Shown one piece after another: positions 38,903 to 47,700 of a DNA stretch of 64,000 nt (positions are counted from its first letter, which is position 1; each line of letters starts with the position of its first letter). The notes under the pieces were generated by a model. The model searched no databases, had not been told where the DNA came from, and saw nothing but the letters and a program-made list of their open reading frames with translations. Position numbers and translations under genes: made by a program. The DNA is from [Mycobacterium] crassicus (GTDB taxonomy: Bacteria > Actinomycetota > Actinomycetes > Mycobacteriales > Mycobacteriaceae): positions 3,578,800 to 3,642,799 of the forward strand of contig NZ_CP084029.1 in the NCBI RefSeq assembly GCF_020181615.1, in the 5' to 3' direction.

Positions 38903-38904
38903 CC

Positions 38905-39165
38905 ACGATCCTCCTCGGGGTTCGCGCCCCATACAGTCGGTTGCCCCGCGGCCGTATCTGGCTCGAGACGCTGTACCGATCGCGCTGACCTGCTGCGCCC
39001 GGCTGCCGCCGCGCTTGCAGTCACCGCACGCGCCCCTCACAGTGGCGGAACCGCCCCGGAATTGAAGCGGCGGTCCCAGCCTCGGCTCGCCTTCACCGCC
39101 CCTTCGGGCCAACTCCGACGAGCCTCGCTGAACCGCCGGATTCGCACCGGGTTCCTGACGCCACG
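38905..39165 (-). promoter_or_regulatory. Cobalamin riboswitch 2 (cobN-cobF-cobQ-cobK unit)
   Basis: On the minus strand, GGAACCCGGTGCGAATCC (near 39138-39155) and GGTTCCGCCACTGTGAGG (near 39036-39053) are the conserved core. A B12-box-like GAGCCAGATAC is at 38954-38964. About 75 nt separate the two core halves, containing a self-complementary GGCTCG...CGAGCC arm, which is longer than in the other copies. A GGGGCG...CCCC hairpin (38917-38930) touches the cobN ribosome binding site. Confidence 0.88.
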
Positions 39166-39194
39166 AGACGGCGGCCAGCCTAACCCAGTAGGCC

Positions 39195-39400
39195 GTGCAA
39201 GAATGGCGCCGGTAAGGCGATGACAACACAGTGAGGAAGCCGGTGAGAGTCCGGCGCGGTCCCGCCACTGTCATCGGGGAGTGACCCTCATCAGCCACGG
39301 CCCGCAACATGTGGGGCTGGAAGGCGAGGCGAGCAGTGATCCGAAAGCCAGGAGACTCACGTCATCGCGTCCTGCGAACCGGGGCGGTGTACCCCGAGGA
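39195..39400 (+). promoter_or_regulatory. Cobalamin riboswitch 3 (importer unit)
   Basis: The core GGAAGCCGGTGAGAGTCC (39234-39251) is followed by CGGTCCCGCCACTGTCA, and the B12 box GATCCGAAAGCCAGGAGAC lies at 39339-39357. The hairpin GGGGCGGTGTACCCC (39381-39395) directly precedes GAGGAAGC, the likely ribosome binding site for the gene at 39416. It is head-to-head with riboswitch 2, so a small shared promoter region near 39170-39200 must serve both. Confidence 0.93.
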
Positions 39401-39415
39401 AGCTGATGCACGCCC

Positions 39416-45734: not shown

Positions 45735-45927
45735 CAGCTCTCTCGGGGTACACCGCCCCGGGCCGCAGGACGCGACGACGTGAGTGTCCTGACTCTCGGA
45801 TCAACGCTCGCCTCGCCTTCCAACTCCGCTAAGAGCCGTGGCTGTTGAGGGTCGCTCCCCGATCACAGTGGCGGGACCGTGCCGGATTCACACCGGCTTC
45901 CTGCACCATCGTTGCCTTACCGGCGAA
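45735..45927 (-). promoter_or_regulatory. Cobalamin riboswitch 4 (PPE gene 43998-45728)
   Basis: The minus-strand core GGAAGCCGGTGTGAATCC, then CGGTCCCGCCACTGTGATC, spans about 45860-45902. The B12 box TGATCCGAGAGTCAGGACAC is at 45783-45802. The hairpin GGGGCGGTGTACCCC (45745-45759) is followed by GAGAGAGCTG. It fills the gap between the two tandem PPE genes, so each PPE gene responds on its own. Confidence 0.93.
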
Positions 45928-45937
45928 TTATCGCACG

Positions 45938-47542
45938 CTAGGTCTTCTGCCTGCCGTACTCGGGCATCCAGGTGCCCGGCGTCATCGGCGTGATGGCACC
46001 GCCGCCGAACGCGTCCCCGGCCAGTGCGGTCAGCCCGCTCGGCAGGACCCCGCTTGGCAAGATGTCGTCCTCCAGATCCATGTACTCGTGCCCGCGGCCG
46101 AGCATGTCGGCCTTGGCCTTTCGGCGCCGGCGGGCCTTGGCCTTCTCCTCGGCGACGGCTGTCTCCGCGGGCGCCGCGGCGGCGTCGGGTTCCGGGGCCT
46201 TGCGGCGGCGGGCACCGGTGCCGGCGGCCCGGCGGGCCTGCTGGCTCAGGCCGGCAACCAGGTACATGGCCGACAGCGCGTCTCCCGGGGACAGCGGCGG
46301 GGCGGGCGGCGGGGGCGCTGCGGGTGCGGCGGGTGCCGAGGCAGGAGCCGGCGCAGGCGCCGGGGCGGGGGCCGGCGCGGGAGCCGGGGCAGGCGGGGTG
46401 GGCGCCACCGTCAGGCCGGCGAAGGGCGGGGGCGTCGGGATCAGCGGAACCGCCGGCACGGCATGCAACGCGGCCAGACCCGACAGCCCCGCCAGCCCGG
46501 CCAGCGGTGCGGCGGCCAGCGGTGCCAGCGCGGTGGTCAGCATCGGCAGCACCATCGGGATCAACACGATGGCCTGCTCCAGCAGCGTCTTGAGCAGGGC
46601 GATGACGTCGGTGATGATCGTGCCGATCGCCTGGACCGCGGTGAACATCAGGGTCGAGGCGATGGTGCCCGGATTGCCGGAGGCGAACGCCGCGGTGATG
46701 TCGAAGGCGATGTAGGCGAAGGTCTGCGACAGGTAGGCGGCGAACGAGCCGAAGTCCATCGGGTAGCCGAGCGCGAACGCGATGTTGTAGGGGCTCAAGA
46801 AGCTCAGCGGATTGCCGGTGAAGGTGAGCCAGGGGTCGAACCCGGCGAAGATCGACTGGAAGTAGGGGTTGGCGGCCAGATCGTTGATCATCGGCTGCAG
46901 CACGTTGTTGTAGAAGTCGGTGTAACCGCTGTTCTGCAGCCAGTCCATGATCTCGTTCTGCCGGTCCGGCGGCAGCGGCGGCTGGCCGGCGTCGGCGGAG
47001 CCGGCTTTGGCGATCACCGGCGCGACAGGGCTCTGCGGGCTCGACGCCACCGCCGACCCGGCGACGGCCTGATAGGTGGCCATCACGGTGGCGGCCTGCA
47101 GCCACATCCGTCCGTAGTCGGCCTCGTTGAGCGCGATCGGGATGGTGTTGACGCCGAAGAAGTTGGTGCCCACCAGCACCGCGTGGGTGGCGTGGTTGGC
47201 GGCCAACTCCCCCAGCGTCGGCATCGCCGCCAGCGCGCTGCTGTAGGCGGCAGCCGCGGACTGCTGCCGGGCTGCCATCGCCGCACTGTCGACGCCGGAG
47301 TGGATCAGCCAGGCCAGATACGGCACGTTGGCCGCCACGTAAGCCTCGGCGCTCGGGCCCTGCCACACCCCGGCCCGCACCGCACCCAACAGCGCGGTCA
47401 GCTCGTCGGCGATCTCGGCGTATTCGGCGCTGAGCGTGGTCCACGCCGCCGCCGATGCCAGCAGCGGACCGGCGCCGGGGCCGGCCGACAGCAACGTGGA
47501 ATGGACTTCCGGTGGGGAGGCGATCCAGATCGGAGCGGTCAC
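45938..47542 (-). CDS. PPE-family protein, close PPE2-like, riboswitch controlled
   Basis: A 534-residue PPE protein with PPE at 10-12, WQGPSAEAY near 59 and NFFGVNTIPIALNEADYGRMW. The middle, with GYTDFYNNVLQPMI and FDPWLTFTGNPLSFLSPYNIAF split around residue 240, and its hydrophobic stretch, recalls M. tuberculosis PPE2 (Rv0256c), which also lies in a cobalamin-regulated locus. The C-terminus carries KARRRRKAKADM, similar in place to the basic signal described in PPE2, and the same GRGHEYMDLE tail as its tandem neighbour. The start is GTG 47542. The two PPE genes look like an ancient duplication that included the riboswitch. Confidence 0.91.
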   Translation of the reverse strand: MTAPIWIASPPEVHSTLLSAGPGAGPLLASAAAWTTLSAEYAEIADELTALLGAVRAGVWQGPSAEAYVAANVPYLAWLIHSGVDSAAMAARQQSAAAAYSSALAAMPTLGELAANHATHAVLVGTNFFGVNTIPIALNEADYGRMWLQAATVMATYQAVAGSAVASSPQSPVAPVIAKAGSADAGQPPLPPDRQNEIMDWLQNSGYTDFYNNVLQPMINDLAANPYFQSIFAGFDPWLTFTGNPLSFLSPYNIAFALGYPMDFGSFAAYLSQTFAYIAFDITAAFASGNPGTIASTLMFTAVQAIGTIITDVIALLKTLLEQAIVLIPMVLPMLTTALAPLAAAPLAGLAGLSGLAALHAVPAVPLIPTPPPFAGLTVAPTPPAPAPAPAPAPAPAPAPASAPAAPAAPPPPAPPLSPGDALSAMYLVAGLSQQARRAAGTGARRRKAPEPDAAAAPAETAVAEEKAKARRRRKAKADMLGRGHEYMDLEDDILPSGVLPSGLTALAGDAFGGGAITPMTPGTWMPEYGRQKT

Positions 47543-47549
47543 GTTCGCC

Positions 47550-47700
47550 AGCTCTCTCGGGGTGCTCCGCCCCGAATCGGAGGTCGCGACGACGTGAGTG
47601 TCTGGCTCTCGGGGGCAGCACCCCGATGACAGTGGCGGGACCGCGCCGGATTCGCACCGGCTTCCTGCATCGTCGTCGCCTTACCGGCGAATTGTCGCAC
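47550..47700 (-). promoter_or_regulatory. Cobalamin riboswitch 5 (PPE gene 45938-47542), compact form
   Basis: The minus-strand core GGAAGCCGGTGCGAATCC, then CGGTCCCGCCACTGTCATC, spans about 47623-47665. Only a short loop separates this from GAGAGCCAGACACTC (47594-47608), so the peripheral arm present in copies 3 and 4 is missing. The hairpin GGGGCGGAGCACCCC is at 47559-47573 before GAGAGAGCTG. Classified by the same conserved boxes. Confidence 0.9.

Follow-up and report, generated by a model that had tools for sequence, protein, structure and literature searches.

The window analysed here, a 64,000-nucleotide (nt) stretch of [Mycobacterium] crassicus DNA (contig NZ_CP084029.1, positions 3,578,800 to 3,642,799; coordinates below are those of the window), lies on a 4.87-Mb single-contig chromosome of the Mycolicibacter clade and carries a putative corrinoid uptake operon between cobN and two PPE genes. 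The cobaltochelatase large-subunit gene cobN (35324..38902, minus strand, start MSDVRR; PF02514, 1289.9 bits) and a plus-strand btuF-btuC-btuD/fhuF-DUF7676 operon diverge from one short region. The operon comprises a cobalamin riboswitch (39189..39378; RF00174) followed by genes for a BtuF-like binding protein (39416..40576; PF01497, Peripla_BP_2, 78.9 bits), a BtuC-like permease (40573..41613; PF01032, FecCD, 252.6 bits), an ATPase of the ATP-binding cassette (ABC) type that carries a fused [2Fe-2S] domain of the FhuF type (FhuF_C; 41610..43388), and a DUF7676 protein with a ChuX/HutX-like predicted fold (43385..43969; PF24724, 237.6 bits). The 4-nt overlaps between btuF and btuC (GTGA), btuC and the ATPase gene (GTGA), and the ATPase gene and DUF7676 (ATGA) are what a translationally coupled operon would be expected to show. 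On the minus strand, the genes for PPE_A, a PPE-PPW protein (43998..45728), and PPE_B, a PPE-PPW-like protein (45938..47542), converge on the 3' end of the operon with a gap of 28 nt and carry their own cobalamin riboswitches (45760..45947 and 47549..47692, respectively, both on the minus strand); beyond them lies a gene for monomeric isocitrate dehydrogenase. Profile scans thus agree with the gene content given in the original prediction (CobN, Peripla_BP_2, FecCD, an ABC and FhuF_C fusion, and two PPE proteins), and the conserved protein described there as being of unknown family is real and belongs to DUF7676.

Genes for B12 uptake are known to be controlled by cobalamin riboswitches, and four such switches had been predicted here, on cobN, the importer, and each PPE gene. 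Three of these leaders, located directly 5' of btuF, PPE_A, and PPE_B, pass the Rfam gathering score (RF00174 at 89.5 and 91.0 bits and RF01482 at 60.0 bits, the last leader also matching RF00174 at 45.9 bits), while the fourth is identified by homology and a regular expression. The cobN leader (38903..39165, minus strand; core 39155-38958) gave no Rfam cobalamin match in the window even at E<=1 and hence lies below the gathering score; its aptamer core is strongly conserved in an alignment with 16 Mycolicibacter relatives, and among three orthologous cobN leaders submitted to Rfam, those of loci L115 (41.8 bits) and L118 (46.9 bits) pass and that of L111 fails. A search pattern (regular expression) written for the core of the aptamer, applied to the window and to single-base shuffles of 20 loci, recovered all four switches of the region and gave no match in 382,072 shuffled bases. 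Because it missed Rfam-positive switches (at 21857 in the window and in L132, L133, L137, L145, L151, L177, and L178), counts obtained with it are lower bounds. Judged by sequence homology, the riboswitch of the cobN leader is real. The genome as a whole contains five RF00174 matches in addition to the cobN leader, and the genes behind these six switches are metE (L251), a cobaltochelatase-like subunit, cobN, the importer, and the two PPE genes. The cobaltochelatase-like subunit lies outside the region, within 22001-23956 (TIGR02442, 720 bits, below the cut-off of 779), preceded by a switch at 21857-21993 on the plus strand. The view that the genes of the region form one cobalamin regulon is supported, and by analogy these riboswitches would act as off-switches.

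All parts of a BtuFCD-type importer, namely the binding-protein, permease, and ATPase domains (Peripla_BP_2, FecCD, and ABC_tran), are encoded in the one operon, as anticipated. The top NCBIfam model of the permease is BtuC, at 189.4 bits against a cut-off of 334, whereas the ATPase scores 152.2 bits with a corrinoid model and 106.7 bits with BtuD (cut-off 281), neither being its top match. The predicted tethering of an FhuF-like domain to the ATPase is upheld by three lines of evidence: an FhuF_C score of 31.9 bits (cut-off 20.5), a cysteine motif, and a predicted structure with the FhuF fold. Cysteines 305, 306, 317, and 320 are invariant in 46 aligned rows and form the C-C-x10-C-x2-C pattern stated for the FhuF family (PMC8068687). 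The FhuF body model PF06276 reaches 20.6 bits, below its cut-off of 25.2. These features suggest that the FhuF-type domain probably acts on the cobalt of the cargo. An extra small domain is located between the ATPase and FhuF parts (42423-42644, plus strand; protein residues about 272-345), and shorter ATPase-FhuF fusions (~480 amino acids, ~70% of the query covered) occur without it.

The predicted model of DUF7676 (predicted local distance difference test score, pLDDT, 84.7) gives fold matches to the heme carriers HutX, ChuX, and HemS. Since the fold matches but the family sequence profile does not, DUF7676 is better described as working like these carriers than as a member of their family, and corrinoid binding is its likelier function. 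A metagenome protein (P0206) joins FhuF to DUF7676 in a single chain. Two variants of the arrangement were also observed: a second FhuF-like frame 3' of DUF7676 in Dietzia (L136:10381-11364; PF06276, 23.3 bits against the cut-off of 25.2), and two successive DUF7676 matches (64% and 88%) after the FhuF part in Mycolicibacter acidiphilus (L118:9337-10546).

A DUF7676 search of named genomes confirmed 188 loci, of which the best 80 (33 mycobacterial and 47 other) were analyzed; an importer locus was defined by btuF, btuC, and the ATPase gene upstream of DUF7676 under tblastn thresholds and a 6.5-kb limit. The closest named neighbors are Mycolicibacter species, with Mycolicibacter sp. MYC340 at the top (98% in the DUF7676 gene). 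Importer genes were found upstream of DUF7676 in 67 of the 80 loci (26/33 mycobacterial and 41/47 other), the non-mycobacterial carriers including Rhodococcus, Prescottella, Dietzia, Microtetraspora and its kin, Streptomyces, Longispora, Pseudonocardia, and relatives of Frankia. The remaining 13 include short contigs and L179, whose importer genes lie beyond 6.5 kb. Cobalamin switches precede btuF in 62 of the 67 importer loci, comprising 24/26 mycobacterial and 38/41 other loci (31 of the latter by regular expression and 7 by Rfam). Neither method detected a switch before btuF in L129, L139, L174, L175, and L176, L129 having one ahead of its PPE gene; in a locus set besides the 80, Rfam detected none in importer loci L089, L092, L095, and L096. 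An FhuF match accompanies 65 of the 67 importer loci (26/26 mycobacterial and 39/41 other; none in L174 and L175). It lies within the ATPase frame in mycobacteria, Dietzia, Microtetraspora, and some Rhodococcus; Streptomyces and other Rhodococcus encode it in a neighboring frame of its own. A scan for the cluster motif gave no match in L146 and only a chance-like one in L159. The arrangement recurs across genera and is therefore not due to chance; the importer-DUF7676 operon is old. DUF7676 without an importer in the stretch read was observed in L120-L122, L127, and L138, and beside a PPE match in L127, L079, and L080.

PPE_A exceeds the cut-offs of both PPE-PPW models (PF00823, 202.1 bits; PF18878, 59.5 bits), whereas PPE_B passes PF00823 (198.5 bits) and falls just short of PF18878 (25.5 bits against 27), a tree grouping the two together. 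Their description as tandem PPE genes with individual switches is in agreement with the Rfam scores given above. PPE genes of this type were found on the same stretch in 20 of 23 mycobacterial importer loci, five as contig-end pieces; these 23 belong to the locus set besides the 80, and the L086 PPE was judged by its N-terminal domain. The anticipated tie between the PPE genes and the importer is most direct in six genomes, where a PPE gene is the next same-strand gene after DUF7676 (L078; L082/L123, Mycobacterium sp. MFM001; L124, M. celatum; L125, M. kyorinense; L083/L126, M. shimoidei; and L086). A midpoint-rooted tree of 96 distinct N-terminal PPE stretches of at least 120 residues, from which duplicates and shorter pieces had been removed, was built from loci chosen around DUF7676 or FhuF, and so covers PPE proteins near these genes. 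The switch-bearing tips share an ancestor with support 0.949. The clade so delimited holds 39 tips, 26 with a switch by regular expression and 13 without, the six in-operon PPE proteins being among the latter; as it is defined by the common ancestor of the switch-bearing tips, it contains all of them by construction, and its support and its other tips are what is informative. Only PPE_A and PPE_B among the 52 PPE-domain matches of their own genome fall within it. One node further out, a group of 46 tips (support 0.858) takes in the PPE of an ESX locus in the same genome, whose gene order (EccA, EccB, PPE, EspG, EccD) we take to be that of ESX-3. The ESX-3 protein PPE4 is important for the utilization of siderophores (PMC7058343), and PPE36, PPE62, and PPE64 have been linked to heme, with channel formation by PPE64 and none by PPE36 (PMC10117145); a putative role of the clade in corrinoid passage therefore has precedent. 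Participation of the switch-linked PPE proteins in outer-membrane passage is nearly an even proposition.

Taken as a whole, the region is probably a cobalamin riboswitch-controlled system for the acquisition of corrinoids (cobalamin or cobinamide). In the proposed pathway, PPE proteins would convey the corrinoid across the mycomembrane as carriers or as channels, the BtuF-like lipoprotein would pass it to BtuC, and the ATPase would power import. The tethered FhuF-type domain, as its fold and motif suggest, might then reduce the Co(III) of the emerging corrinoid and loosen its upper ligand, and DUF7676, built like the cytosolic heme carriers HutX and ChuX, could deliver the product to adenosyltransferase and B12 enzymes, a role consistent with its fold, gene order, and fusion to FhuF. 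A more far-reaching version is put forward tentatively, with the balance somewhat against it: the switch-linked PPE clade would be a mycomembrane corrinoid gate, and the operon a complete envelope-to-cytosol B12 line built from three components borrowed from iron and heme uptake: an ESX-3-related PPE, a motor-tethered FhuF-type reductase, and a corrinoid chaperone resembling HutX.

Several observations weigh against this interpretation. No published evidence of transport, ligand binding, or redox activity was found for any product of the operon or for the PPE proteins; the BtuF-like protein has no NCBIfam match, and the ATPase has its top match with a putative F420-0 transporter model (TIGR03873, 184.8 bits against a cut-off of 372.4). 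The likeness of DUF7676 to HutX is one of fold only and moderate (Foldseek TM-score 0.36-0.49 on query length, best E 1e-3), as no PDB chain matched the family profile and no ChuX or HemS Pfam model matched any of 24 members, both at E<=10. As for the PPE proteins, none like PPE_A or PPE_B was found in the stretch read of three of the 23 importer loci (L081, L095, and L096), Rhodococcus and Dietzia loci gave no PPE match in the stretches searched, and M. simiae has a switch-bearing PPE gene adjoining DUF7676 without an importer in the stretch read. A study of M. marinum did not reveal any specific transporter for B12 in the outer membrane (PMC11237697), and M. tuberculosis PPE2 has been described as acting on host cells (PMC12713380). 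Finally, most of the DUF7676 genomes tested carry CbiC, and the case against cobalt as cargo comes from one draft genome. The original prediction had left the choice between corrinoid and cobalt undecided. In a cobalt system, a cobalt chelate would be imported, the FhuF-type domain would reduce Co(III) to release free cobalt, CobN would insert it, and the PPE proteins would correspond to "CbtG"; the divergence of cobN and the importer from one short region, the further switch ahead of the cobaltochelatase-like subunit, and the function of FhuF in iron release from siderophores (PMC8068687) all fit such a scheme, as does the presence of CbiC in 38 of the 40 DUF7676 genomes tested (covering 40 of the 80 loci), most of which can therefore probably make corrins. 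The two genomes without a CbiC match are those of M. simiae, which keeps CobN and CobK and whose stretch read shows no importer, and of M. shimoidei (G191, a 99% complete draft), in which no match for CbiC, CobN, or CobK was obtained and three B12-binding-domain matches exceeded the cut-off. M. shimoidei nevertheless retains the operon in the order switch, btuF, btuC, ATPase-FhuF, DUF7676, and PPE, with open frames and a PPE gene that is cut by the end of the contig. There would be little reason for this organism to keep a cobalt importer, whereas it would need one for corrinoids. Corrinoid is therefore favored, and the cobalt half of the earlier wording is disfavored. Since BtuC is also the top model of the permease and a fold resembling that of heme carriers is better matched to a tetrapyrrole than to a metal ion, cobalt uptake is considered unlikely. 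Co-occurrence of DUF7676 and CbiC across the class, also examined as a criterion, was uninformative: DUF7676 was present in 6 of 246 genomes, each of which also had CbiC, and CbiC itself occurred in 124 of the 246.

Incidental cobalamin control of an importer for heme, a siderophore, or an F420 precursor would accommodate the top ATPase model and the origin of both the FhuF and ChuX/HutX folds in iron and heme uptake, yet a cofactor switch on an unrelated cargo is hard to reconcile with its recurrence in many genera, ahead of 62 of the 67 importer loci, which makes such a cargo highly improbable. That the operon serves corrinoid import is very likely. The position of the PPE proteins is less settled, because the importer might take up corrinoids while the PPE proteins are members of the same regulon with another job, secreted or at the surface, outside uptake. 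The reported action of PPE2 on host cells is compatible with this, as are the statement that pathogenic mycobacteria are without BtuFCD (PMC12713380), the importer-free M. simiae arrangement, and the three importer loci without such a PPE; placement of a PPE gene directly after DUF7676 in six genomes, the unity of the switch-linked clade, and the use of PPE proteins for heme and siderophores elsewhere (PMC10117145, PMC7058343) argue for a part in uptake. A separate task for the PPE proteins is thus a serious possibility, albeit one that falls short of even odds.

Compared with known systems, the operon resembles Escherichia coli BtuFCD in its binding protein, FecCD-type permease, and ATPase, but differs in the FhuF-type domain carried by the ATPase, the DUF7676 gene that follows, scores under the curated BtuC and BtuD cut-offs, and the absence of a BtuB/TonB partner from the operon as seen. 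HutX, ChuX, and HemS, which act beside an ABC importer, share a predicted fold with DUF7676, whereas the latter has no detected sequence similarity to them and is under cobalamin control. A putative BtuFCD of M. smegmatis (MSMEG_4558-4560) is likewise a predicted mycobacterial importer operon, the likeness being one of description, and neither FhuF nor PPE2 is mentioned in that report (PMC8088520). The M. tuberculosis ppe2-cobQ-cobU locus also places a PPE gene behind a cobalamin off-switch, and its PPE2 was once guessed to be the cobalt transporter CbtG (PMC4428469, PMC11260477); no importer is named there, in contrast to the two PPE genes with individual switches beside an importer described here. 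For PPE36, PPE62, PPE64, and PE5-PPE4, reported roles include the use or binding of heme, the formation of pores (PPE64), and the use of siderophores, but the ligands of these proteins differ from the one proposed for PPE_A and PPE_B, and PPE36 formed no channels (PMC10117145, PMC7058343). The ppe2 riboswitch with its off-switch action, the cobalt-transport guess (PMC11260477, PMC4428469), and the putative M. smegmatis BtuFCD (PMC8088520) are thus already published. The interpretation in the original prediction is partly supported and is sharpened by the preference for corrinoid over cobalt, fold support for a reductase-type domain, a heme-carrier-like partner, and a PPE clade tied to the importer by gene order. 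In the gene table of PMC8192938, no btuF, btuC, or btuD is entered for M. terrae. No paper on DUF7676 or on the pairing of FhuF with cobalamin riboswitches in actinobacteria was found in the open-licence literature, nor, among the papers listed there, one describing a btuFCD operon that contains a PPE gene. According to PMC12713380, no outer-membrane cobamide transporter is known in any mycobacterium, and both mycomembrane crossing and decyanation of cobamides are listed as undetermined for M. tuberculosis. For three steps that await an explanation, the region supplies specific candidates: PPE proteins for outer-membrane passage, the FhuF-type domain for reductive processing, and DUF7676 for cytosolic hand-over. 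The PPE proteins thereby become candidates, open to experiment, for the step across the outer membrane that is missing from the B12 uptake route. Because DUF7676 and the FhuF part are widespread in Actinobacteria, harmless soil bacteria are suitable for testing the proposed reductase and carrier functions.

FhuF-type genes also occur outside such operons, as lone genes in many other mycobacteria (L098, L099, and L181-L200). In a genus sample of 297 genomes, DUF7676 was found in 30 and an FhuF match in 188, with E values of 1.1e-71 or lower in 25 of these and 4.8e-31 in the next. Among 20 lone FhuF genes sampled, seven have an RF00174 match just upstream on the same strand; in the two lone-gene loci that were read, the neighbor resembles recA by eye. 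Loop L5 of the cobN switch contains a dispersed repeat (39062..39139, minus strand), visible in the alignment as ~80 extra nt in the window copy and in L111 (M. senuensis GF74), the one locus among the three tested that fails Rfam; the other 15 aligned cobN leaders, including that of a second M. senuensis strain, are without it. No inverted repeat was detected in the cobN leader by repeat search, although the predicted fold has a hairpin, and its folding energy is unremarkable (z -1.72; 13 of 200 shuffles as good). The repeat has 67 matches in its own genome, several in 57-nt tandem steps that resemble mycobacterial interspersed repetitive unit (MIRU)-type elements, and relatives carry pieces of it in a PPE_B leader (L075/L115) as well as between btuC and the ATPase gene. 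Elsewhere in the window, a SAM-IV riboswitch (50167-50287, plus strand) lies ahead of an O-acetylhomoserine sulfhydrylase gene (50329-51753).

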